A stretch of 64,000 nt of DNA, taken from the IMG/VR virus record IMGVR_UViG_3300008110_000040, positions 1 through 64,000 of that record. The stretch is one strand, 5' to 3'. The position numbers were made by a program, and so were the translations under genes. The first letter of the stretch is position 1, and every line of letters begins with the position of its first letter. The stretch comes from a virus. Below are positions 18,211-53,448 of this stretch, piece by piece. The notes under the pieces are model-generated. The model saw only the letters and a program-made list of their open reading frames with translations. It made no database searches and was not told the DNA's origin.

Positions 18211-19935
18211 ATGGCAGAACAAATTATTTCACCTGGTGTATTCCAAATAGAGTCAGACCAGAGCCTTTACACAACCCAACCACCTGCGTTAGGTGCAGCA
18301 ATAGTAGGTCCTACAGTTATGGGTAGACCTTTTGTACCTACTTATGTTACTACATATTCTCAATATCTAGCATTATTTGGTGATATTTTTAAGAGTGGTA
18401 GTTACTACTATGAATACTTTACTTCACAAGCAGCTAAAGAATATTTTCAAAATGGCGGTCAGTCATTATTAGTTACTCGTATTATTAGCGGATCAGCTAA
18501 TGCAAGTACGTATGCTACATCTAATATTCCTGCTGCTTCAGGTACAGGATCATCATTCCAATTAGAAGTTTTATCATGGGGTGACCAAATGAATAACACT
18601 TCTAGCTTAGTAAGTGGTGCTTTAGCAAGTGGTTCTTCACTAAACGTACGTTGGGAGGTAACATCAGTAAATACAGGAAGTGGTACTTTCACTTTAGTAA
18701 TTCGTCGTGGTGACGATAATGATGCTCAGAAAAATATTTTAGAAACATGGGCTAACGTAAGTTTAGATCCTCAATTACCTAACTACATTTCTCGTGTAAT
18801 AGGTGATTTAAAACCTGTTTATACAGCAGCTACAGGTAATAGCTCAGCATATATTAATTTTACTGGAACTTACCCAAACATATCACAGTATGTTCGTGTT
18901 TCATCAGTTACTACTCCAAATGTAGATTCAATTGACAATAATGGTAATTATAAAGCTACTCAATACAGTGGAAGTTTACCTACAGTAGGAAGTGGATCAT
19001 ATGGTGGTTCGTTCAGTGGAGGTGTAGCAGACACAAACGCTGCTAAGTTGATGAATGAAAACATTACCTCAGCAAGTATTCAAGGATTTACTCCAGCAGA
19101 TTATAATACAGCATTTAGTTTATTATCTAATGCAGATGAATACAGATTTAATATGTTGTTAGCTCCTGGTGTTGGATTAGATAACTCAGCTGTATCTACT
19201 ATGATAGCAACAGTAGAAGGACGTGGCGATGCAATCGCTATTACAGATGCTGGTGTTTATGGAACTGCAATCGGAACTGCAACTCAAAATGCTTCAGGTC
19301 AATCAAGTAATTATGCTGCAACTTATTATCCTTGGGTTCAATTATTCTCAAGTGGTTTAGGAAAAGTAGTATGGTGTCCTCCATCAACAGTAATAGGTGG
19401 TGTATTAGCATTTAACGATAGAGTAGGTGCTGAATGGTTTGCTCCAGCTGGTTTAAACAGAGGTGGTATTCCTTCAGTAGTTCGTCCTGAACGCAGATTA
19501 CAACAAACAGATCGTGATACATTATATAGTGGAAATGTTAACCCAATTGCAACATTCCCAGGTACTGGTACTTGTGTATGGGGTCAGAAAACATTGCAAC
19601 GTAAACCAACATCTTTAGATCGTGTAAATGTAAGACGTTTATTAATAGCATTAAAAGATTTTATCGGTGGTGTATCTCGTACATTAGTATTCGAACAAAA
19701 CACAACAGTAACTCGTAATAGATTCTTATCACAAGTTAATCCTTATTTAGAGTCAGTAGTGCAACGTCAAGGTTTATTTGCTTATAAAGTAGTAATGGAT
19801 GATACTAATAATACAGCAGATGTAGTTGATAGAAACCAATTAGTAGGCCAAATTTATATTCAACCTACTAAAACAGCTGAATTTATTATCTTGAATTTTA
19901 ACATTCTACCAACTGGAGCTACATTCCCAGCTTAA
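18211..19935 (+). CDS. gp18: Tail sheath protein (T4 gp18-like)
   Basis: A 574-residue contractile sheath protein. Family features: the N-terminus ISPGVFQIESDQS, which begins most sheath proteins; a GPTVMGRPFVPT strand soon after; a TRIISGSA motif; a central NMLLAPGV (residue ~310); and a C-terminal RLLIALKDFIGGVSRTLVFEQN followed by the AEFIILNFNI strand. Length is close to T4 gp18 (659). It polymerises around the tube and contracts at infection. It has its own promoter box and a strong terminator. High confidence. Confidence 0.93.
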   Translation: MAEQIISPGVFQIESDQSLYTTQPPALGAAIVGPTVMGRPFVPTYVTTYSQYLALFGDIFKSGSYYYEYFTSQAAKEYFQNGGQSLLVTRIISGSANASTYATSNIPAASGTGSSFQLEVLSWGDQMNNTSSLVSGALASGSSLNVRWEVTSVNTGSGTFTLVIRRGDDNDAQKNILETWANVSLDPQLPNYISRVIGDLKPVYTAATGNSSAYINFTGTYPNISQYVRVSSVTTPNVDSIDNNGNYKATQYSGSLPTVGSGSYGGSFSGGVADTNAAKLMNENITSASIQGFTPADYNTAFSLLSNADEYRFNMLLAPGVGLDNSAVSTMIATVEGRGDAIAITDAGVYGTAIGTATQNASGQSSNYAATYYPWVQLFSSGLGKVVWCPPSTVIGGVLAFNDRVGAEWFAPAGLNRGGIPSVVRPERRLQQTDRDTLYSGNVNPIATFPGTGTCVWGQKTLQRKPTSLDRVNVRRLLIALKDFIGGVSRTLVFEQNTTVTRNRFLSQVNPYLESVVQRQGLFAYKVVMDDTNNTADVVDRNQLVGQIYIQPTKTAEFIILNFNILPTGATFPA

Positions 19936-20017: not shown

Positions 20018-20503
20018 ATGCCAGTACTTTCAGCAAACGAGATAATGTTCACTGCGTTTGAACCAAAAGTTCAAAATCGCTTTATCATGTACATAGATGG
20101 TATTCCTGCTTACCTAATTAAAAAAGCAAGCTCACCTTCATTAGACGCAGGTGAAGTAGTATTAGACCATATTAACGTTTACCGTAAAATTAAAGGTAAA
20201 GTTAGATGGAATGATATGAACTTAGAATTATACGACCCTATCACTCCATCAGGTGCTCAAGCAGTAATGGAATGGGTTCGTTTATCACATGAATCTGTAA
20301 CGGGTCGTGATGGTTACTCAGATTTCTACAAGAAAGATATTACATTAGATGTATTAGGCCCAGTAGGTGATGTCATCAGTGAATGGGTTATCAAAGGAGC
20401 ATATGTTAAAACAGCTAACTTTGGTGATTACGATTGGGCAAATGATCAAGCAATTAACTTATCAGTATCGATTGCTATGGATTATTGTGTATTGAACTTC
20501 TGA
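20018..20503 (+). CDS. gp19: Tail tube protein (T4 gp19-like)
   Basis: A 161-residue tube protein, the same length class as T4 gp19 (163). It begins MPVLSANEIMFTAFEPKVQNRF, where FEPKVQNRF is typical, then IDGIPAYLIKKASSPSL and WNDMNLELYDPI, and it ends ISVSIAMDYC-type strand. It forms the inner tube through which DNA passes. It has its own box and a terminator on both sides. High confidence. Confidence 0.92.
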   Translation: MPVLSANEIMFTAFEPKVQNRFIMYIDGIPAYLIKKASSPSLDAGEVVLDHINVYRKIKGKVRWNDMNLELYDPITPSGAQAVMEWVRLSHESVTGRDGYSDFYKKDITLDVLGPVGDVISEWVIKGAYVKTANFGDYDWANDQAINLSVSIAMDYCVLNF

Positions 20504-20628: not shown

Positions 20629-21153
20629 ATGATAAAACTATCCCAAATATTGAAAGAAATATCATCATCTCCTGAATACCTCACTTTAAATACAAATGAT
20701 AAAAACTTATACGAAACATATATATTATTAGGAGAATTATTAAATCCGGATAATTCATATCCATATGAAGAAAAGATAAAAGGGTTATGGGAATATAAGG
20801 ATATAATGGATAATATATATTTTGTTCGATTAACATATCAACCAACAACTCAACCTCATTTTGAGTTAAAAACAGGATATTATAATGAACATGGTAAACC
20901 TCAATACGACCCGCCAGTACCTGATAATTCAACTAGTAAAGATTGGGATAAACGAAGTGATACTGTTGCTAAAATATATCGTGATGAAATAATACCTATG
21001 TTTATAGAGCAAAACATAAGTAATATATTAATCATAAAACCACTAGAAATTAAAAGATATCAATTTAGTGTAAGATTAATAGATAAATTTACCCCTAACA
21101 ACATTCAGATAAAATATAATAAACCTCAATCTATTGTTTTAACAAAACCATAA
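20629..21153 (+). CDS. Protein with capsid-targeting-like leader
   Basis: A 174-residue protein starting MIKLSQILKEIS, with candidate prohead-protease site LKE at residues 8-10. After the leader come a helical segment and a mixed alpha/beta body (NIYFVRLTYQPTTQPHFELK), ending in a short basic C-terminus. It lies between the tube and the tail-chaperone genes, as the T4 internal-protein type can be scattered. Function unknown; packaged-protein role inferred. Confidence 0.6.
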   Translation: MIKLSQILKEISSSPEYLTLNTNDKNLYETYILLGELLNPDNSYPYEEKIKGLWEYKDIMDNIYFVRLTYQPTTQPHFELKTGYYNEHGKPQYDPPVPDNSTSKDWDKRSDTVAKIYRDEIIPMFIEQNISNILIIKPLEIKRYQFSVRLIDKFTPNNIQIKYNKPQSIVLTKP

Positions 21154-21199: not shown

Positions 21200-21219
21200 G
21201 GCTTGGCTTTTGCCAGGCC
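21200..21219 (+). terminator. Terminator-like hairpin
   Basis: An 8-bp stem (GGCTTGGC / GCCAGGCC, one G-U pair) with a TTTT loop, followed by TCTTCTT. A copy of the AT-rich box (21152-21160) lies upstream and another downstream. The T tract is weak. Confidence 0.5.
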
Positions 21220-21259: not shown

Positions 21260-22030
21260 ATGGAAAATACTGTTACAAAACCAAAATTCCCAACAGAGAT
21301 AGTAGATTTACCTTCAAAAGGTTTACTTTATCCTAAAGAAAACCCACTATCAAGCGGTAAAATTGAAATGAAATATATGAGCGCGCGCGAAGAAGATATT
21401 CTTACAAACGCAAACTATATTAAACAAGGTACTGTTATTGATAAACTATTGCAAGCTCTTATTGTATCTCCTATCAATTATGATGATTTATTGATTGGTG
21501 ATAAAAATGCAATTTTAGTTGCCGCTCGTATATTAGGATATGGTAAAAATTACCAATTTACTTACGTTAATTCGCAAGGTCAAGAAGTAGACGCGGTAGT
21601 TGACCTAACTACTCTTAACGACAAGATAATCGAAGATTCTCTTTATACCCCCGGTTTAAATGAGTTCAATTTTAAACTACCTCACTCAGATAATACTGTG
21701 ACTTTTAAGTTATTAACACATGGTGATGAAAAGAAAATTGAAGCTGAAATAAAAGGTTTACAGAAAATCAATCCAAGTGCTACTTATGACGTAACTACTC
21801 GTTTAAAATACATGATTACATCAGTAAACGGTAATCGTGAAGTAAAAGAGATACGTGAATTCGTAGATAATTTCTTAATGGCTAGGGATGCCAGAGCATT
21901 ACGTGAATATTATGTTAAAATACAACCTGATATTGAACTAAAATATATTCCTAATGACGAAAACTATGTTGGGGAGGGCATAGATATTCCTATTTCTCTT
22001 AACTTTTTTTGGCCTGACTCAGGAATATAG
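21260..22030 (+). CDS. Tail assembly chaperone, unshifted form (gp26/gpG-like)
   Basis: A 256-residue protein with DLPSKGLLYPKENPLSSG near the N-terminus and KYMSAREEDILTNANYIKQG after it, a pattern known from T4 gp26-type baseplate-hub/tail-chaperone proteins of T4-like phages. It sits directly before the tape measure gene, the canonical place for the gpG chaperone. Near its 3' end, seven T residues (22004-22010) overlap an open frame in the +1 register, so a longer shifted form is expected. It would bind the tape measure during tail assembly and not stay in the virion. Confidence 0.75.
   Translation: MENTVTKPKFPTEIVDLPSKGLLYPKENPLSSGKIEMKYMSAREEDILTNANYIKQGTVIDKLLQALIVSPINYDDLLIGDKNAILVAARILGYGKNYQFTYVNSQGQEVDAVVDLTTLNDKIIEDSLYTPGLNEFNFKLPHSDNTVTFKLLTHGDEKKIEAEIKGLQKINPSATYDVTTRLKYMITSVNGNREVKEIREFVDNFLMARDARALREYYVKIQPDIELKYIPNDENYVGEGIDIPISLNFFWPDSGI
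22004..22010 (+). other. Programmed frameshift site (T7 run)
   Basis: The run of seven T follows AAC. In the zero frame the ribosome reads TTT TTT TGG and stops six codons later. A +1 step (or -2) gives GGC CTG ACT CAG and opens a 90-codon extension. A -1 step would meet TGA at once, so +1 or -2 is required. Confidence 0.65.
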
Positions 22031-22283
22031 ATTAGTTTTATTTAGTCAAATACACGACATTTGTTTCTGGGGACAAGGTGGATATGATTGGAATACTGTT
22101 TATGATATGCCCGTTTGGTTACGTACGTTTACCTTTAATAAAATAAAGGAATACCATGATAAACAAAACGAGGAGATTGAAAAGCAGCAAAATATGATGA
22201 ATAATAACAGTAAAAAACAAGAATTAGCAAAACCAAATATAACCCCTAAACCAGATTACGTTACAAGAGCACCTAAAAAATAG
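22011..22283 (+). CDS. Frameshifted C-terminal part of tail assembly chaperone (gpGT-like)
   Basis: A 90-residue extension in the +1 frame with no start codon before its conserved part: YRLVLFSQIHDICFWGQ, then GGYDWNTVYDMPVWLRTFTF, then a charged helix. The motif (Y/D)xMPxWLRxFxF is the hallmark of the T part of tail-chaperone pairs. The fused product from 21260 would be about 340 residues. It ends just before the tape measure promoter, and its last codons form the terminator stem. An internal ATG (22109) would omit half of the conserved region. Confidence 0.7.
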   Translation, partial: GLTQEYRLVLFSQIHDICFWGQGGYDWNTVYDMPVWLRTFTFNKIKEYHDKQNEEIEKQQNMMNNNSKKQELAKPNITPKPDYVTRAPKK

Positions 22284-22293
22284 GTGCTTTTTT
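22268..22293 (+). terminator. Terminator overlapping the chaperone stop codon
   Basis: An 8-bp perfect stem (AGCACCTA / TAGGTGCT) with an A5 loop and six T. The last coding codons of the frameshifted frame and its TAG lie in the stem. Conservation of this arrangement would support that the frame is real. Confidence 0.75.
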
Positions 22294-22308: not shown

Positions 22309-24279
22309 ATGGCTGACGATAAAGATAAAATAATAAAAGATTTAAATCAAGCATTAGATAGCTTAGACCAAAGAATTAACGGAGCGGTAAATACATTAAA
22401 CACTCAGTTTATTACTGGTTTAACTAATTCTATAAATAAGGCTAGAGATTTAACTAAGGCTTTTGAAGATGGTGAAAAAATTGAAAAAAAATTAACATCC
22501 GAACGAAGAAAAATTAATAATAGTATAGATTCTAGTCTTCGTTTAGAAGCTAAATTACAAGATAAAATATTAAAAGCTAACACAACAGGAAACTATACTA
22601 AAGCCGCATCTCTACAAATCCAATTAGACTCTCTAGTAGCTCAAAGAGAAATAAATGAGGAATTAGATTATAATTTACTACAACTAGAGAAAGCAAATAG
22701 TTTAGAAAGGCAACTAACAGAAGAAAAGAAAAAACAAAATTCACTCAGCGGAGTAGCTAAAAAACTATATGACGATAACTTTAAAAAAATAGTAAACTCT
22801 TTTACTACCCTACAAGGTGTAATAGATTTACTGATTAAAGCTGCTTTTAATTTTAATAAAGTATCAGTCGATGTAGGTAAGAATTTTGGATATGGAGCAG
22901 ATCAAGCAGATAGATTAACATCTAATTTAGCATCAGCTGCTAGAAATTCAAGTAATGTTAACTTTACATTAAAGAATGCGGCCGAAGCAATGACCCAGTT
23001 GAATGAACAAACTGGATTTGTTGCAGAATACTCAGCACAAACACTTGAAACTCAAATAATGTTAACCAAACAGTTTGGTTTAACAGCAGAAGAGGCATCA
23101 GGAATATATAAGTTCTCAGTATTAACTGGTAAATCTACAGAACAAATAAACAAGTCGATGGTGGGAGCATATGTTGCTGCTCGTAATCAACTTGGAGTAG
23201 GAATACCATTTAAAGCTACTATGGCTGAAGCCGCTAAGGTGTCAGGTCAATTAGCAGCTAACCTAAAAAATAATCCTGAGTTTATAGTTAAAGCAGTAGC
23301 TCAAGCAAAAGCATTAGGTACTACTTTAGAACAAACTAAAAAACAGGGTGAATCATTATTAGAATTTGAATCTTCAATTGAAGCTGAATTAAAAGCTGAA
23401 TTATTGACAGGTCAAGCCCTTAATTTAGAAAGAGCTAGAGCAGCAGCATTAATGGGTGACCAAGTTACAGTAATGAAGGAACTTAATAATCAAGGAATGA
23501 CACTTGAGAAGTTCCAAGCAATGAATGTATTAGCCCAAAAATCATTTGCTTCTGCTATTGGTTTAAGTGCAGATGAATTAGCAAATCAACTTAGACAACA
23601 GAAATTAGCAGTTGAAAGTGGTAAGTCATTAGCTCAAATTACTGAGGAAGAAGCAATAGAAGCACAAAAACGCCAAAACATACAAGATAAATTTAATGCT
23701 GCTGTCGATAAATTAAAAGACTTAATAGGTAATTTAGTAGCAGGTCCTCTTGGTAAGTTTTTGGATATGATAAGTAGTATATTATCTCATACAACTGCTT
23801 TAAAAATAGTTGTAGCAGGATTGGCAGGATATATGGTAGCCTCTCTTATCCCCTCATTTAGTAGATTAGCAGTAATAATGAGATATATAAGAATGCAAGG
23901 AATAGGAACTGCTATAGCTACTGCTATTTCAAATCCATTTGCCGCTATAGCTGGTTTGGCTACGGCCGGTATAGTAGGAGCATATTTAAATTCCAAAACG
24001 GCAGATGACATGGTATCTGAAGGAGGTTATGGGAAACGCACATTATTAGCTCCAGAAGGTGCTATTAAGTTAAATGATAAAGATACAATAATAGCGGGAA
24101 CTAATTTAGGTAGATCTAACCCACAACCTCAACAAATAGACAACACAGCTTTAATAGCAGCTATCAATAGACAAACCGATGTAATAGCTAGTAAAAATTA
24201 TACACCAACATTACAAGCAATAGTAGAGGGCTCAGTATTAGCAACGGGAACTGTTCAAAATTCTTATAACTTAGCTTAA
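22309..24279 (+). CDS. Tail tape measure protein
   Basis: A 656-residue protein that sets tail length. The N-terminal ~200 residues are coiled-coil and charged. The middle contains alternating amphipathic helices rich in Ala and Gln. Residues ~490-570 hold hydrophobic segments (KIVVAGLAGYMVASLI, IAGLATAGIVGAYL) that may insert in the host membrane. It follows the G/GT chaperone pair, as expected. It plays the role of T4 gp29. Its 3' end is partly duplicated 1.1 kb downstream. Confidence 0.85.
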   Translation: MADDKDKIIKDLNQALDSLDQRINGAVNTLNTQFITGLTNSINKARDLTKAFEDGEKIEKKLTSERRKINNSIDSSLRLEAKLQDKILKANTTGNYTKAASLQIQLDSLVAQREINEELDYNLLQLEKANSLERQLTEEKKKQNSLSGVAKKLYDDNFKKIVNSFTTLQGVIDLLIKAAFNFNKVSVDVGKNFGYGADQADRLTSNLASAARNSSNVNFTLKNAAEAMTQLNEQTGFVAEYSAQTLETQIMLTKQFGLTAEEASGIYKFSVLTGKSTEQINKSMVGAYVAARNQLGVGIPFKATMAEAAKVSGQLAANLKNNPEFIVKAVAQAKALGTTLEQTKKQGESLLEFESSIEAELKAELLTGQALNLERARAAALMGDQVTVMKELNNQGMTLEKFQAMNVLAQKSFASAIGLSADELANQLRQQKLAVESGKSLAQITEEEAIEAQKRQNIQDKFNAAVDKLKDLIGNLVAGPLGKFLDMISSILSHTTALKIVVAGLAGYMVASLIPSFSRLAVIMRYIRMQGIGTAIATAISNPFAAIAGLATAGIVGAYLNSKTADDMVSEGGYGKRTLLAPEGAIKLNDKDTIIAGTNLGRSNPQPQQIDNTALIAAINRQTDVIASKNYTPTLQAIVEGSVLATGTVQNSYNLA

Positions 24280-45984: not shown

Positions 45985-46057
45985 GGGGTTGTAGCAAAGA
46001 TGGACTATGCGCCGGTCTGAAAAACCGGAGATATTGGATCGTTACCAGTCAGCCTCA
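45985..46057 (+). tRNA. tRNA-Phe(GAA)
   Basis: Acceptor GGGGTTG with CAGCCTC (two G-U pairs), anticodon arm CCGGT-CTGAAAA-ACCGG, T arm ATTGG-ATCGTTA-CCAGT. The T loop departs from TTCRANN at its first base. Complete cloverleaf. Confidence 0.75.
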
Positions 46058-46064
46058 CAAATAC

Positions 46065-46140
46065 GCAAGTGTAGTGACCAATGGTTTTAACACGTCCGGC
46101 TCCAACCCGGAAAATGTGGGTTCGAATCCTACCACTTGTG
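46065..46140 (+). tRNA. tRNA-Trp(CCA)
   Basis: Acceptor GCAAGTG with CACTTGT, anticodon arm TCCGG-CTCCAAC-CCGGA, T loop TTCGAAT. Complete. Confidence 0.9.
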
Positions 46141-46147
46141 CAAAAAA

Positions 46148-46198
46148 ATCGTTATAAGGCATATGCTAGTAATGCCAGCAGGTTAAGCGATATCCTGC
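46148..46198 (+). other. Two-hairpin linker RNA
   Basis: Two adjacent stems, GGCAT / ATGCC and GCAGG / CCTGC, between tRNA-Trp and tRNA-Asn. No known family. Could be a processing spacer. Confidence 0.3.
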
Positions 46199-46204
46199 AA
46201 ATAA

Positions 46205-46277
46205 TGTGATGTAGCTCAGAGGCAGAGCAGGGAGCTGTTAACTCCAAGGTCGGTGATTTCGAAATTCCCCATCACAG
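46205..46277 (+). tRNA. tRNA-Asn(GTT)
   Basis: Acceptor TGTGATG / CATCACA is perfect; anticodon loop CTGTTAA. The T arm pairs poorly (GGTGA against TTCCC), so the gene may be partly degraded. Confidence 0.7.
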
Positions 46278-46330
46278 CCGGTTTGGGTTTTATACTTTTA
46301 GACTTACAAGATAAGGAAAAAGTAATTACT

Positions 46331-46401
46331 GGGGTAGTGGCCAGGGTAGCTCACAACGACTGTAAATCGTAGGTGCGAAAGTTCGATTCTTTCCTGCCCC
46401 A
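46331..46401 (+). tRNA. tRNA-Tyr(GTA)
   Basis: Acceptor GGGGTAG / CTGCCCC, anticodon loop CTGTAAA in stem ACGA/TCGT, T arm GAAAG-TTCGATT-CTTTC. Short variable region for a Tyr tRNA. Confidence 0.85.
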
Positions 46402-46489
46402 CAAAAATAAAAAAGATGAAACGAAAACTATAACAGTGCATGAGTATCAAGGATATAAGTGCACAAATTAAGATTAAAATTTAATTTAT

Positions 46490-46564
46490 GCGCTTGTAGC
46501 TTAATTTGGTAGATGCACTCGGCTTTTAACCGAGGGGTTGGGGGTTCAAGTCCCTCCAGGCGCA
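46490..46564 (+). tRNA. tRNA-Lys(TTT), copy 1
   Basis: Acceptor GCGCTTG / CAGGCGC, anticodon arm CTCGG-CTTTTAA-CCGAG, T loop TTCAAGT. Complete. Confidence 0.92.
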
Positions 46565-46572
46565 CAGAGTTT

Positions 46573-46646
46573 GACTCTGTAGCTCAATTGGTTAGAGCAC
46601 CTCACTTTTAATGAGGGGGTTATGAGTTCGAGTCTCATCAGGGTCA
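46573..46646 (+). tRNA. tRNA-Lys(TTT), copy 2
   Basis: Acceptor GACTCTG / CAGGGTC, anticodon arm CCTCA-CTTTTAA-TGAGG, T loop TTCGAGT. Second Lys gene with a different body. Confidence 0.92.
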
Positions 46647-46651
46647 CAAAT

Positions 46652-46915
46652 ATGAATATAACAGGCATGACTTTAGACGGTAAGATTACTGTTGGAAATA
46701 TAGGTAAATTCTATTTTCAAAAAGGAATACCATTAAATATAATATTTGATTGTTTAATTAAAAAAGATATAGTAGTTGATTGGATTTCATTAAAAGATGA
46801 GTTAATAAACAACGGAATGTCTTTAAATAGAATTAAACATTTATTGAGTGAAAATATTAATGACTCATACGGTAAACAATATCGCGATGATATCATTAGT
46901 AGATTAGGTCTTTGA
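46652..46915 (+). CDS. Hypothetical protein inside tRNA cluster
   Basis: An 87-residue protein, MNITGMTLDGKITVGNIGK..., starting six bases after tRNA-Lys copy 2. An earlier non-ATG start would lie inside that tRNA and is rejected. It has a mixed alpha/beta look and ends YRDDIISRLGL. Probably co-transcribed with tRNAs. No family recognised. Confidence 0.55.
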   Translation: MNITGMTLDGKITVGNIGKFYFQKGIPLNIIFDCLIKKDIVVDWISLKDELINNGMSLNRIKHLLSENINDSYGKQYRDDIISRLGL

Positions 46916-46932
46916 CATATTGTAAATTATTT

Positions 46933-47008
46933 GGTCTCGTGGTCTAATGGCTCAGGATACATGACTGTCTATCATGGGGTGAGGGTTCGATTCCCTTCGG
47001 GACCGCCA
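46933..47008 (+). tRNA. tRNA-Asp(GTC)
   Basis: Acceptor GGTCTCG / CGGGACC, anticodon loop CTGTCTA, T loop TTCGATT, encoded GCCA end. Confidence 0.92.
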
Positions 47009-47099
47009 AATTAACTGCAATGAGAAATACGGGTTCGAAGCCCGGGTGGCGGGTGTAAACACGCGCTACCTGAAGCTAAGTTGCGATAGCCAGTTAATT
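47009..47099 (+). ncRNA. Inside-out tRNA-like RNA (Y-RNA-like or permuted tRNA)
   Basis: The ends pair in a perfect 9-bp helix (AATTAACTG / CAGTTAATT). Inside, the order is T arm (CGGG-TTCGAAG-CCCG, 47030-47044), then acceptor 3' strand GGTGGCG, capping loop, acceptor 5' strand CGCTACC (47064-47070), then a D-arm-like GCT...AGC. This is a tRNA body opened at the anticodon arm and closed at the acceptor. It lacks the TAGYAAY / TACTTCG stem of the other family members. YrlA-type Y RNAs have this topology. Confidence 0.55.
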
Positions 47100-47105
47100 A
47101 AACAT

Positions 47106-47178
47106 AGCGTAATAGCCTAATGGTTGAGGCACTTGCTTTGGGAGCAAGACGATGTCGGTTCGAGCCCGGCTTACGCTA
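47106..47178 (+). tRNA. tRNA-Pro(TGG)
   Basis: Acceptor AGCGTAA / TTACGCT, anticodon loop TTTGGGA, T loop TTCGAGC. Complete. Confidence 0.9.
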
Positions 47179-47183
47179 CACAT

Positions 47184-47300
47184 GGGGGAGAATGCAAAAC
47201 AAAACACTGTTCAAGCATTCTCTCGAAAGAGTAGTAATAGAATAGTTACTTCGCAATCAAACTGTAAATTTGACGACTTGCCGTAAGGCCTCCCCCACCA
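47184..47300 (+). ncRNA. tRNA-Tyr-like RNA with Y-type stem inserted in D loop
   Basis: Acceptor GGGGGAG pairs CTCCCCC followed by ACCA. The anticodon arm TCAAA-CTGTAAA-TTTGA gives GTA. The T arm is replaced by a short GCC-GTAA-GGC hairpin. Between the two halves of the D arm (TGC / GCA) lies the family stem: ACTGTTC (47206-47212) pairs GAATAGT (47240-47246), then CTCTCGAAAGAG closes the distal helix, with conserved TAGTAAT and TACTTCG. Here the stem is a closed internal hairpin and the acceptor is free. Confidence 0.55.
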
Positions 47301-47301
47301 T

Positions 47302-47373
47302 GCAGATATAGCACAATGGTTAGTGCTTCGGCTTGCCAAGCCGAAGATACGAGTTCGAGTCTCGTTATCTGCT
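47302..47373 (+). tRNA. tRNA-Gly(GCC)
   Basis: Acceptor GCAGATA / TATCTGC, anticodon arm TCGGC-TTGCCAA-GCCGA, T loop TTCGAGT. Complete. Confidence 0.92.
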
Positions 47374-47380
47374 CTAATAA

Positions 47381-47456
47381 GCGTGTATGGTGTTTCAATG
47401 GCTTAGCATGCTGCACTTCCAATGCAGAGGTTTCAGTTCGAATCTGAATACGCGCT
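47381..47456 (+). tRNA. tRNA-Gly(TCC)
   Basis: Acceptor GCGTGTA / TACGCGC, anticodon arm CTGCA-CTTCCAA-TGCAG, T arm TTCAG-TTCGAAT-CTGAA. Complete. Confidence 0.9.
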
Positions 47457-47464
47457 CGCTTTTA

Positions 47465-47575
47465 TGAATAAGTTAGCAGCATAAACAATTGACGGAATGC
47501 TGTAAGTCTTAACGACTTTGGAGATGCGAAGTATAGTAACGTCTCCTAAATTTTTTAGGAGGTTCCTGCCTAGTA
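47465..47575 (+). ncRNA. Unassigned structured RNA
   Basis: Four local stems in a row: CAGCAT / ATGCTG, AAGTC / GACTT, GGAGA / TCTCC (enclosing TATAGTAAC, similar to the family strand TAGTAAC) and CTCCTAAA / TTTAGGAG. No T loop. It may be a divergent member of the Y-like family ending in a terminator-like hairpin. Confidence 0.35.
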
Positions 47576-47595
47576 TTAATACTGAAGTGGGCCAT

Positions 47596-47668
47596 GGGCT
47601 GTTGGTATAGTTGGCTAACACGATAGCTTTGCAAGCTATAGTCCCCGGTTCAAGCCCGGGACGGTCCA
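47596..47668 (+). tRNA. tRNA-Ala(TGC)
   Basis: Acceptor GGGCTGT / ACGGTCC, anticodon loop TTTGCAA, T loop TTCAAGC. Complete. Confidence 0.9.
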
Positions 47669-47670
47669 CA

Positions 47671-47735
47671 AAATTGTAGGTGTCAGATAACCTTCAGGTT
47701 TGAGTCGCAGTTGTACCTTAAACAGCTGACAATTT
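47671..47735 (+). ncRNA. Unassigned hairpin RNA
   Basis: Ends pair (AAATTGT / ACAATTT, or TGTCAG / CTGACA); inside is AACC-TTCA-GGTT. It lies directly before tRNA-Met. No family recognised. Confidence 0.3.
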
Positions 47736-47809
47736 GCCGAGTTGGTAGAGTAGGTTTCTTACGGGGCTCTCATAAGGCTCAGACAACAGTTCAAATCTGT
47801 TACTCGGTA
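47736..47809 (+). tRNA. tRNA-Met(CAT), copy 1
   Basis: Acceptor GCCGAGT / ACTCGGT, anticodon loop CTCATAA, T arm AACAG-TTCAAAT-CTGTT. One of three CAT tRNAs; could be Met, initiator Met or Ile (lysidine type). Confidence 0.85.
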
Positions 47810-47819
47810 CAAAATATAT

Positions 47820-47898
47820 TGTGGGAGGGTGAAACGGATATATAAATCATTCTGGGCTCATAACCCAGAGATAGCTGGTTCGACTCCAGCGCCCGCAA
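47820..47898 (+). tRNA. tRNA-Met(CAT), copy 2
   Basis: Anticodon arm CTGGG-CTCATAA-CCCAG, T arm GCTGG-TTCGACT-CCAGC, acceptor TGTGGGA / GCCCGCA with one mismatch at the inner end. D arm is long and irregular. Confidence 0.75.
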
Positions 47899-47900
47899 CA

Positions 47901-48059
47901 AAAACAGTAGTAACGTGAAAGTTACTTCGAATGCATAGGGAGCACGTACATTGGTGGTTCGAATCCATCCCTCCCAACCAATAAAATAATAATATTGGGA
48001 GGTGGCGAAATTGGTAGACGCACGTAAAGAAAAAACACTTTTACAATTTTCTCTGTTTT
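47901..48059 (+). ncRNA. Y-like RNA with inside-out tRNA-Leu-like body
   Basis: Outer helix AAAACAG (47901-47907) / CTGTTTT (48053-48059). Conserved TAGTAAC, then GTGAAAGT (47915-47922) / ACTTTTAC (48037-48044), then TACTTCG. The body has T arm GGTGG-TTCGAAT-CCATC, acceptor CCTCCCA plus ACCA (47970-47980), a 15-base linker, acceptor TGGGAGG (47996-48002), and a Leu-type D arm GGCGAAATTGGTAGACGC. The acceptor pairs perfectly. Order is reversed relative to a normal tRNA; an anticodon is not resolved. Confidence 0.65.
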
Positions 48060-48063
48060 ATAT

Positions 48064-48135
48064 TCTCGGGTCGTCTAGCGGCAGGATAGGGTGCTTTGAA
48101 CACTCTGACAGTTGGTTCGAATCCACTCCCGAGAA
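48064..48135 (+). tRNA. tRNA-Gln(TTG)
   Basis: Acceptor TCTCGGG / CCCGAGA, anticodon arm GGGTG-CTTTGAA-CACTC, T loop TTCGAAT. Confidence 0.9.
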
Positions 48136-48142
48136 CAAAAAA

Positions 48143-48173
48143 TTTGATTGGCAAAATAAAGTTATTATCTTTA
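48143..48173 (+). promoter_or_regulatory. Bacteroidota-type promoter, near-consensus
   Basis: TTTG (48143-48146), 19-base spacer, TATCTTTA (48166-48173). The ATG begins five bases after the -7 box, so the mRNA should be leaderless or nearly so. Confidence 0.7.
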
Positions 48174-48177
48174 CAAC

Positions 48178-48432
48178 ATGAAAGAATTAGTAATACGATA
48201 TTTCAGAGGTCAAGCACTTAACATAGATGAGTGTGTTAAATTAATGGAGGAATATATGAAAAAAACAAATAAAGATAATCCTACGTTAATACAAAAATTG
48301 ATAGATCCTATGAATCCATTTGGGCCATCAATGTTACAACAAGCAGTAGATGTATCTGCTCGCTCGTTGGCTGAAGATTTTGATATTACTAGATTATATT
48401 CGAAAGAAGGTAATTTATTAATGGTATATTAA
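48178..48432 (+). CDS. Hypothetical protein with own promoter
   Basis: An 84-residue protein (MKELVIRYFRGQALNIDECV...). It has a near-consensus Bacteroidota-type promoter right before the ATG, the clearest early-type unit inside the RNA island. Helical, amphipathic; ends with LYSKEGNLLMVY. No family recognised. Could be an early host-interaction protein. Confidence 0.6.
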   Translation: MKELVIRYFRGQALNIDECVKLMEEYMKKTNKDNPTLIQKLIDPMNPFGPSMLQQAVDVSARSLAEDFDITRLYSKEGNLLMVY

Positions 48433-48437
48433 AATAA

Positions 48438-48514
48438 GGGCCTTTAACTCAGTTGGTTAGAGTAACTGACTCATAATCAGTAAGCCACAGGTTCAAGCCC
48501 TGTAAGGCCCACCA
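48438..48514 (+). tRNA. tRNA-Met(CAT), copy 3
   Basis: Acceptor GGGCCTT / AAGGCCC, anticodon arm ACTGA-CTCATAA-TCAGT, encoded ACCA end. Confidence 0.9.
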
Positions 48515-48519
48515 AATAT

Positions 48520-48591
48520 GGTCCCGTCGTCTAATGGTTAGGATGTCACCCTTTCACGGTGAAGATTTCGGTTCGAATCCGTGCGGGACTA
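48520..48591 (+). tRNA. tRNA-Glu(TTC)
   Basis: Acceptor GGTCCCG / CGGGACT, anticodon loop CTTTCAC, T loop TTCGAAT. Confidence 0.92.
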
Positions 48592-48596
48592 CAATT

Positions 48597-48669
48597 GCTG
48601 ATATGGTCGATTGGTTTAGGCACTAACCTGATACGTTAGTCTAGGTAGGTTCGATTCCTGCTATCAGCA
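48597..48669 (+). tRNA. tRNA-Ile(GAT)
   Basis: Acceptor GCTGATA / TATCAGC, anticodon loop CTGATAC, T loop TTCGATT. Confidence 0.92.
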
Positions 48670-48671
48670 CA

Positions 48672-48717
48672 AAGTCCAAGAGTAATTAACTTGGTACCTG
48701 AGAGGTTCGAAACTCTC
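48672..48717 (+). other. T-arm-like hairpin remnant
   Basis: CCAAG / CTTGG hairpin, then a T-arm-like GAGAG...CTCTC hairpin with GTTCGAAA loop. No acceptor or anticodon arm. Looks like a tRNA fragment or a small unassigned RNA. Confidence 0.3.
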
Positions 48718-48720
48718 GAT

Positions 48721-48831
48721 TGACTATGGTGTATAGGTGTGCACAGAGGAACGTAGTAAGAGGCACTGTCGAAAGACGATACAATCTCTGAACTGAGACT
48801 CAGGATTAAGGTTCAAACCCTTTTTAGTCAG
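48721..48831 (+). ncRNA. Class II tRNA-like RNA with Y-type stem in place of anticodon arm
   Basis: Acceptor TGACTA / TAGTCA, D arm GTG...CAC, variable arm CTGA-GAC-TCAG and T arm AAGG-TTCAAAC-CCTT are in normal order. Where the anticodon arm should be is a longer stem: CAGAG / CTCTG (48744-48748 / 48786-48790), an internal loop with TAGTAAG and ACAAT, and a TGTC-GAAA-GACG tip. Long variable arm suggests Leu or Ser origin. Resembles YrlA, where the Ro-binding stem takes the anticodon-arm place. Confidence 0.5.
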
Positions 48832-48834
48832 CAA

Positions 48835-48942
48835 AGATAGAAGTAAGTGGCACCTGTTGCAGGCAACATAAAGTAAGATCCACAACTTGGCTGGTCGTCA
48901 CTTCTTATAACATAATAATGTGGGTGTTATAAGCTATCTTTA
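48835..48942 (+). ncRNA. Unassigned structured RNA closed by 7-bp helix
   Basis: AAGATAG and CTATCTT close a region with stems TGTTGC / GCAACA and TTATAACA / TGTTATAA. No tRNA features. Unknown. Confidence 0.4.
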
Positions 48943-48944
48943 AT

Positions 48945-49016
48945 GCTCGGTTAGTTTAATAGGTAAAACTACTGATTTGTAATCAGAGAACATCGGTTCG
49001 ATTCCGGTACTGAGCT
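48945..49016 (+). tRNA. tRNA-Thr(TGT)
   Basis: Acceptor GCTCGGT / ACTGAGC, anticodon loop TTTGTAA, T loop TTCGATT. Confidence 0.92.
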
Positions 49017-49023
49017 CAAAAAT

Positions 49024-49099
49024 GGTCGCTTCGCTTAGCTGGTTTTAAAGCGCTTGATTTACATTCAAGAGATCATAGGTTCGAATCCTATAGCGACTA
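49024..49099 (+). tRNA. tRNA-Val(TAC)
   Basis: Acceptor GGTCGCT / AGCGACT, anticodon arm CTTGA-TTTACAT-TCAAG, T loop TTCGAAT. Confidence 0.9.
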
Positions 49100-49106
49100 C
49101 AAAAAC

Positions 49107-49198
49107 GGAGGGTTGAGAGAGATGGATGATTCTGCTAGTCTTGAAAACTAGATGTCGCGTAAATCCGGGGCACGTGGGTTCGAATCCCACACCCTCTT
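49107..49198 (+). tRNA. tRNA-Ser(TGA)
   Basis: 92 bases, acceptor GGAGGGT / ACCCTCT, anticodon loop CTTGAAA, long variable arm, T loop TTCGAAT. Confidence 0.9.
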
Positions 49199-49213
49199 CA
49201 AATAAAAAACATA

Positions 49214-49417
49214 ATGGAAAGAATACCACAACATATAATCGACCAAATGCGTCAATCACTGTTAGGTAAACGAGTACGATACAGGGATATAGTAGGTGAA
49301 TGTAAATACTTCGGTTATAACGAATATTTACCTAAGTGGGGACTGCAAATAACTTTAGATAGAATGCCTTTATCTAATGTTGATATAAAGCACATATTTA
49401 TAGTAGATGAGCTATGA
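49214..49417 (+). CDS. Small hypothetical protein
   Basis: A 67-residue protein (MERIPQHIIDQMRQSLLGKRV...). It has a compact alpha/beta look with KRVRYRDIVGECKYFGYNEYLPKWGL. It overlaps the next gene by 11 bases, suggesting coupled translation. Located between tRNA-Ser and tRNA-Cys. No family recognised. Confidence 0.55.
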   Translation: MERIPQHIIDQMRQSLLGKRVRYRDIVGECKYFGYNEYLPKWGLQITLDRMPLSNVDIKHIFIVDEL

Positions 49418-49601
49418 ATTAATCTTTATACTGTACGCAGTAATAATAATCTCTATTCCAGTAATATTGCTGGCTATAGTAGTATTATATGAACTTCTTG
49501 AGAGTACCTACCATATAACTGAAATGATATTTCCAGTACATCACACTGCGGTTAGATGGATATTATTGTTAATAATTTTTATATTGTTTTTTATTTTATA
49601 A
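49407..49601 (+). CDS. Small membrane protein, two transmembrane segments
   Basis: A 64-residue protein with two hydrophobic segments (residues ~4-28 and ~49-64) and a short loop with STYHITEMIFPVHHTAVR. Size and layout fit a holin, an antiholin or a superinfection-exclusion protein, but no lysis gene is adjacent. It ends right before tRNA-Cys. Function uncertain. Confidence 0.5.
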   Translation: MSYELIFILYAVIIISIPVILLAIVVLYELLESTYHITEMIFPVHHTAVRWILLLIIFILFFIL

Positions 49602-49673
49602 GGGCGATTGTCTGACTGGCTGAGGTGGCCGCCTGCAAAGCGGCTTAAATAGGTTCGATTCCTATATCGCCCT
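49602..49673 (+). tRNA. tRNA-Cys(GCA)
   Basis: Acceptor GGGCGAT / ATCGCCC, anticodon loop CTGCAAA, T loop TTCGATT. Confidence 0.92.
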
Positions 49674-49708
49674 CACTTAAATGAACGTAAAGAGTAATTT
49701 GTTTATAA

Positions 49709-49777
49709 GATGTAAGGTAAACAAATGAACATAAACCTTTATTAGTAAGCATTACTAGTGTGTGTACTTACATCTCT
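49709..49777 (+). other. Hairpin-rich spacer before tRNA-Ser
   Basis: AGATGTAAG pairs CTTACATCT (9 bp) around a region with AGTAAGCATTACT. No known family. It may shape processing of the next tRNA. Confidence 0.35.
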
Positions 49778-49779
49778 AT

Positions 49780-49866
49780 GGAGAGTAAAGCAACCAGGGT
49801 GTTGTCACCGCCTGCTAAGCGAGTGGTACTTTCGGGTATGAATTTCGAATATTCTGCTCTCCGCCA
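49780..49866 (+). tRNA. tRNA-Ser(GCT)
   Basis: Acceptor GGAGAGT / GCTCTCC with encoded GCCA, anticodon loop CTGCTAA, long variable arm, T loop TTCGAAT. The T stem is weak. Confidence 0.8.
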
Positions 49867-49951
49867 AAGTAAGTTTGGAAAGGCAAAGTCCAAAGCTTAT
49901 ATTTAAATCATAATAAAAAGAAATGTCAAATAATTAATTTGTACCAAGTTT

Positions 49952-51577
49952 ATGTCAAAATTTAGAAATGCGTCATTAGCTTCTAAAGTAGGAGCAATGA
50001 AACCAAAAGACAATTTAGTAGCAGCAGCATCAATTCCTGCTCCTGATACTAAGAACATTCAAGGTAAAGAAGCTTATTCACAAGATAAGTGGGTTAAATT
50101 ACTAACAATGTTAAATACATTGAAATTGGAAAACCAATTTTACCGTTCAGAGTCTAAGACTATGACCGAATTGAGATCGTTAATGATAGAATGTGCTCAA
50201 GCAGATCCTTATTTTACAGCACAATGTATTGTTTACTCTCGTTGTGTGGGTGAAGGTATGAGATCAATTAATCACTTAGCAGCTGTTTATTTAGCTCCCT
50301 ATTTAGGTGGTTTAGATTGGGGTAAGCGTTTCTATGGATTATGGAATAAAAAAGAAGCTAAAGGTGGAACTATATATCGCCCAGATGATATCGCTGAAAT
50401 CGTTGCTGCATATAGTGCATTAAACGAAAAAGGTATTACTAACGCGATGAAGAAAGGTTTCAAATCGGCTTTAGAAAACATGGATGCGTATAGTTTGTTA
50501 AAATACAAACCAGCCTTACTTGATATTATCAATTTAGTTCACCCAAATCCAAATGTTTCAAAAGCAGTGGTTGATTATGAAGGTAAAAAAGTATCTGTAT
50601 TTGAAGCTATTATGAAAGGATACAACGTATCAGCTGATACTTGGGAAGTAGCTCAATCAGACGCTGGTCAAATTGTAGCAAAAGCTGTTAAAGAAGGTAA
50701 GTTATCTAAAGAAGATGCTGCTGAAGTATTAGCTGAAGCAAAATCTGATAACTGGGAAGCTTTATTAGTAGATGGTAAATTAGGTATTTTAGCTGCTTTA
50801 AGAAATATTAGAAATATTTTATTAGCTAAACCAAAAGAAACTACAGTTGACATGTTATGTAAATTGTTATCTGATGGAGTGGCTATTAGAAAAGGTAAAG
50901 TAATGCCTTACCAAATTGATATGGCTAATGAAGTTGTAAACGCAGAATTTAGCGATGCTAATTCTCGTAAGATTTCAAAAGCATTATTAGCTGGATATGA
51001 ATTAGCATTACCTAACTTAGCTGAATTGCTAACAGGTGATACTTTAGTAATGGTTGACTTTTCAGGTTCAATGACTACATATGTTAAAGATCCAAAACGT
51101 AAAACAAATTACAAGTCAACTTGTATGGATAAAGCAGCTCTAATTGCAGCTACAATTGCAAAAGCTACAAACGGAGATATAATTCGTTTCGGTTCAAGTG
51201 CTGAATATGTAAATTATAATGCTAATTTAGATGTGTTTTCACTTGCTAACTCTATCAAAAAAGATATGGGTGGAACAAGTTTAGCACAAGCATGGGCTGC
51301 AGCTCAAAAATCAGGTAGAAAATACACACGTGTGTTTATCTTATCTGATAATGAATGTAATATAGGTTCAACTTATAAAGCATACCAATCATATGTTGAA
51401 AAAACAGGTGATCCATATGTTTATTCAGTTGACTTAGCAGCATATGGTACAACTGCTATAGCAGGTCCAAAAGTAAGATTTTACTACGGATTCGGTTATA
51501 CAATGTTTGATGATATCGCAACAAGCGAATTCAATGCAAACTACCATATTGAAAAGGTTAAAAAGATTGTTATCTAA
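49952..51577 (+). CDS. Ro60 (TROVE + vWA) RNA-binding protein
   Basis: A 541-residue protein, the length of animal and bacterial Ro60 (about 530-540). Residues ~30-340 form the TROVE HEAT-like ring (MTELRSLMIECAQADPYFTAQCIVYSR is typical). Residues ~360-530 form a vWA domain with MIDAS DFSGSM (about 369-374), GGTSLAQAW and FILSDNE. Ro60 binds Y RNAs and misfolded RNAs and can gate RNase access. It sits within the tRNA island, followed at once by RNAs that look like its Y-RNA partners. Confidence 0.9.
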   Translation: MSKFRNASLASKVGAMKPKDNLVAAASIPAPDTKNIQGKEAYSQDKWVKLLTMLNTLKLENQFYRSESKTMTELRSLMIECAQADPYFTAQCIVYSRCVGEGMRSINHLAAVYLAPYLGGLDWGKRFYGLWNKKEAKGGTIYRPDDIAEIVAAYSALNEKGITNAMKKGFKSALENMDAYSLLKYKPALLDIINLVHPNPNVSKAVVDYEGKKVSVFEAIMKGYNVSADTWEVAQSDAGQIVAKAVKEGKLSKEDAAEVLAEAKSDNWEALLVDGKLGILAALRNIRNILLAKPKETTVDMLCKLLSDGVAIRKGKVMPYQIDMANEVVNAEFSDANSRKISKALLAGYELALPNLAELLTGDTLVMVDFSGSMTTYVKDPKRKTNYKSTCMDKAALIAATIAKATNGDIIRFGSSAEYVNYNANLDVFSLANSIKKDMGGTSLAQAWAAAQKSGRKYTRVFILSDNECNIGSTYKAYQSYVEKTGDPYVYSVDLAAYGTTAIAGPKVRFYYGFGYTMFDDIATSEFNANYHIEKVKKIVI

Positions 51578-51609
51578 GCTTTGAAAGACAAGATAAAAAT
51601 CGTATATTT

Positions 51610-51701
51610 AAATATAAGTTAGATAGCAAGATAGTGGGTTACTTCGTTTTATTTGAAAAACTCCAACTATACTCACGTCAATTAACTTCTAGCTTATATT
51701 T
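51610..51701 (+). ncRNA. Y-like RNA, short body
   Basis: Begins 33 bases after the Ro60 gene. Outer helix of 13 bp (51610-51622 with 51689-51701, one G-U). Conserved TAGCAAG, inner helix GTGGGT (51634-51639) / ACTCAC (51671-51676), TACTTCG. The body is only 24 bases, with an anticodon-arm-like TTTTATTTGAAAAA hairpin and no T arm. The clearest simple Y-RNA shape of the set. Confidence 0.65.
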
Positions 51702-51726
51702 AATTTGTTCTTTGAATTAATGAATT

Positions 51727-51848
51727 TGGGTAGCAATGTAAAAGTTACTTCGTAGTGCAATGGTAGCACAATTTTATTTCCAAAAATCAGTTATGGGTTC
51801 GATTCCCATCGAGGCCGAAAGGCTTAACACTTTTACAATTTTCTCCCA
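51727..51848 (+). ncRNA. Y-like RNA with tRNA-Glu-like body
   Basis: Inner helix TGTAAAAGT (51737-51745) / ACTTTTACA (51829-51837), nine perfect pairs; short outer helix TGGG / CCCA; conserved TAGCAAT and TACTTCG. The body has D arm GTGC / GCAC, anticodon arm ATTTT-ATTTCCA-AAAAT (TTC), T arm ATGGG-TTCGATT-CCCAT. The acceptor is CGAGGCC, a GAAA tetraloop, then GGCTT, completed by CG at 51751-51752: seven pairs if the ends are joined. So it is opened in the acceptor and capped by a tetraloop. C37 is unusual for a working tRNA. Confidence 0.65.
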
Positions 51849-51857
51849 TATAATACT

Positions 51858-52001
51858 AGTAAGATAGCAATGTTGTAAGTTACTTCGTATATTGGTTCGA
51901 CTCCAATATTTTCCGCCAACAATTGGAAAATTAGCTAAATGGATAAAGCAAAACTCTTATAAAGTTTGATAAAACACACTTACTCAAATAATCTTCTTAC
52001 T
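51858..52001 (+). ncRNA. Y-like RNA with inside-out tRNA-Ile-like body
   Basis: Outer helix AGTAAGA (51858-51864) / TCTTACT (51995-52001); TAGCAAT; inner helix GTAAGT (51875-51880) / ACTTAC (51978-51983); TACTTCG. Body order: T arm ATTGG-TTCGACT-CCAAT, acceptor ATTTTCC, GCCA, linker, acceptor GGAAAAT (perfect 7 bp), D arm GCT / AGC, anticodon arm AAACT-CTTATAA-AGTTT (TAT). It is opened in the variable loop. A full tRNA could form if the ends were joined. Confidence 0.7.
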
Positions 52002-52010
52002 TAAAATATT

Positions 52011-52257
52011 ATCTAGTAGTAATTAATCAGTTACTTCGAAACAAAAATGCTATCATAGATAGCATATAACACGTAAATTATATTAATATATAATTTCTAC
52101 CATCAAATCGGTAACAGCTGGTATCTATTGCCGAGTCGAAAGACTTAGTAACTACCCCAGGTTTTAATAGTACCTTGCCAAAAAATATTACGTTTGTTGC
52201 GTTAAGACATGAGGTACAGCTTATATCTGATACACCTGATTAAAGTAAACTCTAGAT
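52011..52257 (+). ncRNA. Y-like RNA with large (~200 nt) body
   Basis: Outer helix ATCTAG (52011-52016) / CTAGAT (52252-52257); TAGTAAT; inner helix TAATCAG (52024-52030) / CTGATTA (52236-52242); TACTTCG. The body is not tRNA-like: stems ATGCTATC / GATAGCAT, AAATTATAT / ATATAATTT, GAGTC-GAAA-GACTT and GTACC / GGTAC. It shows that the same Y-type stem carries different cargo domains. Confidence 0.6.
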
Positions 52258-52266
52258 TAAAAATAT

Positions 52267-52401
52267 TATATTAGTAGTAATAGGTAATCGTTACTTCGAA
52301 AATTAGCTCAGCTGGTTGAGCGTTTGTATGTGGAACAAAAGGTCGTTGGTTCAACTCCAACATTTTCAATCAAATACACGATCCTAACTTTCTCTAATAT
52401 A
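52267..52401 (+). ncRNA. Y-like RNA with tRNA-His-like body
   Basis: Outer helix TATATTAG (52267-52274) / CTAATATA (52394-52401); TAGTAAT; inner helix ATCGT (52287-52291) / ACGAT (52378-52382); TACTTCG. The body is in normal order: acceptor GAAAAT / ATTTTC, D arm GCTC / GAGC, anticodon arm TTTGT-ATGTGGA-ACAAA (GTG), T arm GTTGG-TTCAACT-CCAAC. The stem is attached at the acceptor ends. A standard tRNA-His is encoded separately at 53731. It ends one base before tRNA-Leu. Confidence 0.6.
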
Positions 52402-52402
52402 T

Positions 52403-52486
52403 GCTCCGATGGCGGAATAGGTAGACGCGTGGGACTTAAAATCCCATCCCCGCAAGGGGGTACAGGTTCGATTCCTGTTCGGAGCA
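52403..52486 (+). tRNA. tRNA-Leu(TAA)
   Basis: Acceptor GCTCCGA / TCGGAGC, anticodon loop CTTAAAA, variable arm CCCC-GCAA-GGGG, T loop TTCGATT. Confidence 0.93.
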
Positions 52487-52488
52487 CA

Positions 52489-52605
52489 ATGAGGAAGAGA
52501 TGCTCATCAGTCTTTGGACCAAGTCTTTAATAATGGTCTCGTTCGATCCGGACAGCGGAATGCCGGTTATAGAGGATGAAAAGGATGTGGACACACTCCT
52601 CTCTA
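52489..52605 (+). ncRNA. Unassigned structured RNA
   Basis: Stems GATG / CATC, GACCA / TGGTC, CCGG / CCGG and AGAGGA / TCCTCT, with a TTCGATCC segment that resembles a T loop. No complete tRNA can be drawn. The remaining 106 bases to tRNA-Leu(TAG) show only weak inverted repeats. Confidence 0.35.
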
Positions 52606-52711
52606 TTAATGTTGATTTATATTTTTATGTGGTAAGACACTAATGTGTTTGTTTTCAAGAAAACTAAACCGTTAAAATCTACTCATCTGGAATCTCAGGA
52701 TGGGGTAATTT

Positions 52712-52784
52712 GCCCTGGTGGCGGAAAGGCAGACGCGCTGGTCTTAGGAACCAGTTTTTGAGAGTTCGAATCTCTCCCGGGGTA
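52712..52784 (+). tRNA. tRNA-Leu(TAG)
   Basis: Acceptor GCCCTGG / CCGGGGT, anticodon loop CTTAGGA, T loop TTCGAAT. Short variable region for Leu. Confidence 0.85.
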
Positions 52785-52786
52785 CA

Positions 52787-52986
52787 AATAAACAAGAGAA
52801 CTCATCGCTGGTAACAGAGGAAGTTCGCGACATCACAGCTTAAGGCAGGAGTATGAACAACATATGTTAGTACTGCCGAGGATGCAACTCAAAACAGCCT
52901 AGACGGTGAGCTGGTCTATAATGGCAAGGTTGGAGGCAAAGATAAATGATGAGATAAAACAGAATCGCGGCTAAGCTCAGTTTATT
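52787..52986 (+). ncRNA. rnpB: RNase P RNA, very short form
   Basis: P1 is AATAAAC / GTTTATT (52787-52793 / 52980-52986). The universal core is present: GAGGAAGTTCGCG (52817-52829) and ACAGAATCGCGGCTAA (52959-52974), forming P4 with the conserved bulged U (AG-U-UCGCG / CGCGG-CU). Upstream of the 3' strand is AGATAAATGA, like the bacterial J18/2 element (AGATGAATGA). At about 200 bases it is far shorter than bacterial RNase P RNAs (330-400), so peripheral domains are mostly lost. It lies among the phage tRNAs it would process. Confidence 0.8.
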
Positions 52987-52996
52987 AAGTTCTTTG

Positions 52997-53200
52997 AACA
53001 ACTACTGATTGACACTAAACAGTAATTATGCAGACCACGTTAAAAAAAGCGATTTTGTGGAGGCGTAAATGATAATTACCTCACAGTCTAAGATGTGAGT
53101 GGTTTAGGTTGATGTAATGATTTGAGAAAATATACTGCCCACAGATAGTAAATATGTGGTTTCAATGTTTAATTATCCTACTTAGAAGGCAGTAGTTGTT
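52997..53200 (+). ncRNA. Unassigned 204-nt structured RNA
   Basis: A perfect 11-bp helix closes it (AACAACTACTG / CAGTAGTTGTT). Inside are GTAATTAT / ATAATTAC, CTAAAC / GTTTAG, CTCACA / TGTGAG, CCAC / GTGG and CCACA / TGTGG. It is not tmRNA, SRP RNA or 6S RNA by any motif I know. It follows the RNase P RNA by 10 bases. Confidence 0.55.
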
Positions 53201-53206
53201 TAATTT

Positions 53207-53279
53207 GGTCCTATGGTGTAATGGATTAGCACCAACGCCTTCTAAGCGTTTAGTATAGGTTCGAATCCTATTAGGACTA
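53207..53279 (+). tRNA. tRNA-Arg(TCT)
   Basis: Acceptor GGTCCTA / TAGGACT, anticodon loop CTTCTAA, T loop TTCGAAT. Confidence 0.92.
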
Positions 53280-53282
53280 CGA

Positions 53283-53352: not shown

Positions 53353-53360
53353 ACGAATTT

Positions 53361-53447: not shown

Positions 53448-53448
53448 C

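Follow-up and report, generated by a model that had tools for sequence, protein, structure and literature searches.

The locus raises the question of whether a conserved tail protein is encoded in two overlapping reading frames that are joined by a ribosomal frameshift and, if so, in which direction the ribosome shifts. Frameshifting in tail assembly chaperones (TACs) is a textbook case of recoding. In the window (the whole stretch of 64,000 nucleotides that we analysed, part of a virus record of 171,732 bases), a zero-frame open reading frame runs from 21260 to 22030 and ends in TAG (22028-22030), a +1 frame is open from 21984 to 22283, and a run of seven Ts (T7; 22004-22010) lies in their overlap, all at the positions given in the initial annotation. 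The product of the +1 frame includes ...TFFGLTQEYRLVLFSQIHDICFWGQGGYDWNTVYDMPVWLRTFTF.... At the putative shift site on the plus strand (AAC TTT TTT TGG CCT GAC, 22001-22018), which is conserved in relatives, the zero frame reads AAC TTT TTT TGG CCT GAC TCA GGA ATA TAG, and the +1 frame reads TTT TTT GGC CTG ACT CAG GAA TAT AGA. Three further features that the initial annotation had described were also borne out: a -1 shift meets a stop at once (TTT TTG GCC TGA, FLA-stop, with the TGA at 22015-22017 directly after the site); the +1 frame has no start before its conserved part, its first ATG, GTG or TTG being the ATG at 22107, within the conserved core; and the +1-frame stop (TAG, 22281-22283) lies within a terminator-like hairpin (22265-22291). 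Since long open +1 frames are not rare in the window (27 of 106 cases reach at least 240 nt, many of them probably real downstream genes), the case rests on conservation and not on the length of the open frame.

The gene neighborhood and the protein family both point to a tail chaperone of a contractile-tailed phage. All genes in this region are on the plus strand: a tail sheath protein gene (18211-19935; matches to Phage_sheath_1 and phrog_23), a tail tube protein gene (20018-20503; phrog_4542, E=3e-24; product 59% identical to a protein of Flavobacterium phage immuto), an ORF of 174 aa (20629-21153) that gave no match in a family search, the zero-frame gene itself, and a tape measure gene (22309-24279; 656 aa) whose product is 30% identical over 362 aa to the annotated immuto tape measure (E=4e-32). 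The chaperone gene thus sits between the tube and tape measure genes, with the 174-aa ORF intervening after the tube gene. A second terminator-like hairpin, at 21200-21219, lies just 5' of the chaperone gene. The 256-aa zero-frame product matched PF12322 (E=2e-6; 28.0 bits, above the curated cut-off of 24.5) and phrog_150 (E=9e-13), and phrog_150 is also matched by both gp26 and gp51 of T4, with gp51 reaching further toward the C-end of the profile than gp26. By these profile matches, the product is a tail assembly chaperone of the T4 gp26/gp51 family, corresponding to the short, gp26-like form (TAC-N).

Structure prediction, in which the N-part and the extension were folded separately, gave an N-part (pLDDT 92) that resembles predicted structures of T4-like "baseplate hub assembly" proteins. 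There was no significant match among solved structures, the HK97 chaperone 2ob9 being a weak one (E=3.8, TMt 0.49). The extension is predicted to consist of a conserved helical region (approximately residues 4-65) followed by a tail with no predicted structure, and its predicted fold, searched alone, had no structural match. The extension showed a weak similarity to the C-end of gp51, both in profile comparison (E=0.07, collinear to the last residue) and by hmmsearch (E 0.01-0.6), which is only suggestive of homology.

We found that the +1 relation is conserved far beyond the window. A first sample of 80 viral contigs and several isolates yielded 83 loci with the +1 relation and TTT[C/T]T[T/A]T at the joint. 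Further scans brought the total to 284 loci with the N-domain, and an iterated profile located the C-domain in 275 of these: in an overlapping +1 frame in 258, in an overlapping -1 frame in 13, in the zero frame in none, as a separate ORF in three (two distinct contigs), and, in one (L165), in the +1 frame following an N-gene that is interrupted. Among the nine N-domain loci with no C-domain match, seven were too short or cut off by a contig end; in RM378 the +1 ORF was recognised by eye, and Alishewanella phage Slickus01 gave no clear case of the arrangement. These counts take in near-duplicates, with the dereplicated set holding 176 of 257 +1 loci. The relation is kept in Bacillus phage SP-15, Listeria LIS04, Streptococcus GXN1 and Rhodothermus RM378. 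A 20-member alignment prepared for a distant scan had no conserved stretch to use as a query, and gp26 of cyanophage S-PM2 was not found within the S-PM2 stretches examined. In L165, a stop near position 1848 interrupts the chaperone N-gene well before the shift site, and the site and C-domain remain; by its sequence this appears to be a damaged gene or an assembly error.

Both frames evolve as coding sequence. The zero-frame gene had a dN/dS of 0.17 and the +1 extension one of 0.19, and 3' of the zero-frame stop 52% of changes still fall at codon position 3. These values indicate that the extension is under purifying selection and has the codon-position pattern of a gene. Together with the placement of the C-domain in the +1 frame in nearly all loci, this supports a frameshift-made chaperone of the G/GT type, as the initial annotation had proposed, as the best reading of the locus.

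From the conserved frame relation and site, we infer that programmed +1 frameshifting very probably produces the long (GT-like) chaperone. At AAC_UUU_UUU_UGG_CCU_GAC, a minority of ribosomes would slip forward by one nucleotide: tRNA-Phe on a P-site UUU (within 22004-22009) would re-pair with the UUU that overlaps it, or with UUC in some relatives, during a delay in filling the codon that follows (mostly UGG). Reading would then resume at GGC (22011) and continue as GGC CUG ACU... to 22283, giving the junction N-F-F-G-L-T-Q and a long form (TAC-NC) that consists of the short form plus an extension of 90 residues. Any -1 product would end at once, because a conserved UGA lies directly behind the site; among relatives, the -1 frame closes at a median of 3 codons. 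By analogy to lambda gpG/gpGT (PMC5009743), and given the family and gene order, coating of the tape measure may fall to the short form and recruitment of tube subunits to the long form, with a fixed rate of slippage setting the ratio of the two.

The sites in relatives are compatible with this mechanism throughout. Among the 258 loci, we found TTT TTT TGG in 146, TTT CTT TGG in 84, TTC TTT TGG in 17, TTT CTA TGG in two and other sites in nine (TTT TTT CAC in SP-15 and a duplicate, TTC TTT CGT in GXN1, TTT TTT AGT in LIS04, TTT CTA TTC in LR756508, TTT CTT TAC in L071, and three singletons). In all 258, a +1 slip leaves the P-site tRNA able to re-pair at one or other of two codons: in nearly all cases UUU moves to UUU or UUC (from the first codon or the second), and otherwise CUU moves to UUU as at the RF2 site.

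We considered that the shift might instead be -2, as in phage Mu, where it is documented (PMC5009743). A -2 shift leads to the same frame as +1 and would add one Phe, and the homopolymer in the window, taken alone, permits it; indeed, the initial annotation had left the choice between the two directions open. The comparative data favor +1, since -2 re-pairing is impossible in 21 of the 258 loci: at TTC TTT TGG (17) and TTC TTT CGT (1) it would put tRNA-Phe on UCU, and it fails at TTT CTA (3) as well. Moreover, at TTT CTT (85 loci, including L071) it would put tRNA-Leu on UUC. These re-pairing rules count as an argument rather than a measurement, and on their basis we consider a -2 shift to be unlikely.

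A second possibility is slippage of RNA polymerase along the T run, which would yield a mixture of mRNAs for the two forms. The T7 in the window, and in 147 of the 258 loci, would be consistent with slippage, but T7 is short for efficient slippage by polymerase, and T runs reach at most 3 in 70 loci and at most 4 in a further 36 (those with TTT CTT or TTC TTT), yet the frame relation and the domain are kept. Thus, the comparison with relatives that the initial annotation had called for upheld a conserved frame relation but not a uniform T run, and slippage by polymerase appears very improbable.

We regard as equally improbable that the C-part is translated by itself, from a start within or beyond the zero-frame gene. 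The first possible start in the window's +1 frame lies inside the conserved core, and there is no ATG, GTG or TTG between the site and mid-core in 179 of the 258 loci and none at all in 100. Independent starts, which the initial annotation had named as grounds for rejecting a frameshift, were confined to one small lineage nested among frameshifting relatives, L122 (=L135) and L127, in which the C-domain is a separate ORF that starts at an ATG 2-5 nt past the end of the zero-frame gene and opens with a new leader of approximately 20 residues (1923-2243 in L122; from 1924 in L127). In these contigs, however, the slip region reads TTC TTG TAT or TTC CTT TGG and the C-ORF is in another frame that the +1 frame does not reach, closing the +1 route. 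In that lineage the frameshift seems to have been replaced, and we do not take this as evidence against a frameshift in the window. A sequencing error, also raised at the outset, or a pseudogene has nothing in its favor other than the frame break itself and has next to no probability, since hundreds of contigs, each assembled separately, share the break with complete isolate genomes (immuto, Mel-JY01, SP-15, LIS04, GXN1, RM378), with purifying selection on both sides of it.

In more distant homologues, the C-domain lies in the -1 frame and the sites are canonical heptamers. Of the 13 -1-frame loci, those with T_TTT_TTC or T_TTT_TTT comprise PBECO4 and relatives, Atu_ph07, Phosso, Vibrio 2.275.O, PA5oct, XacN1, RAS14 and LR756511. 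The chaperones of PBECO4, Atu_ph07, PA5oct and XacN1 belong to the same N family as that of the window, with the same C-domain by profile and the same FF position, but in these giant or T4-related phages a T before the UUU pair creates a T_TTT_TT(T/C) heptamer, and it is the -1 frame, unlike in the window, that holds the C-domain. The window has C as the preceding base, no X_XXY_YYZ heptamer and no -1 frame relation. An A_AAT_TTC heptamer was found at the other two -1-frame loci, L254 (IMG/VR 3300010883_010859) and L256 (3300027779_002770), which retain the FFWP motif but encode it through TTC TTC; these two homologues lie near the +1 group. By sequence, these two loci are candidates for a natural switch of shift direction. 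In a quick tree of 102 N-proteins, which is unrooted and gives no direction of change, expression mode required four changes. L254 and L122 were each nested within +1 rows, although the forks near L254 were not starred, and LR756511 and RM378 formed long branches whose placement is unsure.

The codon before the slip codons is itself biased. We found that TTT TTT is preceded by a codon with C rather than T at its third position in 97 of 98 loci of the dereplicated set, compared to 25% in the same genes (binomial p ~1e-56, with loci that are not independent), and this bias falls before the point at which reading of the +1 frame would begin. Avoidance of a -1 heptamer can explain the C-ending codon at most in part, because the same bias is seen before TTT CTT (34 of 36, compared to 28%).

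Lambda gpG/gpGT and other tail assembly chaperones were reportedly described as products of programmed frameshifts by Xu, Hendrix and Duda in 2004, and T4-like TACs are said to have been identified by Vladimirov, Gautam and Davidson in 2022, in a paper that, to judge by its title, favors a different mechanism. A -1 shift serves lambda and most other frameshifted chaperones, whereas the family described here would use +1 at UUU_Y and belongs with T4 gp26/gp51. In T4, however, gp26 and gp51 are encoded by separate, divergently transcribed genes on opposite strands, rather than by one gene with a frameshift. Shifts of -1, -2 and +1 are all known among tail chaperones, and in a review such frameshifting is called widely conserved, "except T4" (PMC5009743). 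A paper citing the 2022 work (PMC12846349) states that poly-T -1 signals are present in TAC-N genes of the T4-like kind, and it reports -1 TACs for the Vandenendeviridae. Two known tail systems share the +1 direction but differ in gene family and site: the presumed +1 TAC shift of the haloarchaeal myovirus HSTV-2, and SPP1 gp17.1*, which shifts at CCC_UAA (PMC5009743, PMC6316719). UUU_C was shown by mass spectrometry to act as a +1 site in a eukaryotic system (UCC_UUU_CGU; PMC3498833), and UUU is among the better +1 slippery codons at the RF2 site (PMC10885494).

A large T4-related family of contractile-tailed phages appears to use frameshifting, mostly +1, and at this joint its relatives rely on -1 or on separate genes; together they form a natural series for testing what sets the direction of a shift. 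In the literature searched, which covered the 2022 paper through its title and citations, we found no description of a UUU_Y +1 class. We propose, tentatively and with somewhat less than even confidence, that these are members of a large undescribed class of bacterial-phage +1 sites, in which UUU_Y is usually followed by UGG, preceded by a C-ending codon and backed by a UGA that would trap -1 slippage; its hosts are phages infecting Bacteroidota, cyanobacteria and Bacillota, and the same chaperone would have switched between +1, -1 and separate-gene expression, and the determinants of shift direction might be read from the natural variants. Current annotations miss the long chaperone or mis-call its C-part a "hypothetical protein" (immuto, SP-15, Mel-JY01), and in LIS04 the C-part is not annotated.

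As to possible stimulators, no conserved RNA structure or 3' stem-loop was found, and folding near the site was weak (mean z of approximately -0.6 to -0.8). A Gly codon, GGG, is over-used 9 nt upstream of the site (approximately 80 of 118, against an 11% background; L136 and many others), but this GGG(G) element is confined to part of the family and absent from the window. We therefore rejected a universal internal Shine-Dalgarno sequence; in the part of the family that carries it, GGG could be an internal Shine-Dalgarno-like stimulator. The RF2 (prfB) site, CUU_UGA, offers a parallel, in that the variant TTT CTT TGG holds CUU_U and some members have GGG(G) upstream, but at RF2 a stop follows the slip codon, whereas here UGG follows and the window lacks the upstream element. 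We also note that the window carries 25 phage tRNA genes (45985-53724), among which tRNA-Phe(GAA) adjoins tRNA-Trp(CCA), the readers of the shift-site codons; this adjacency may be a coincidence.
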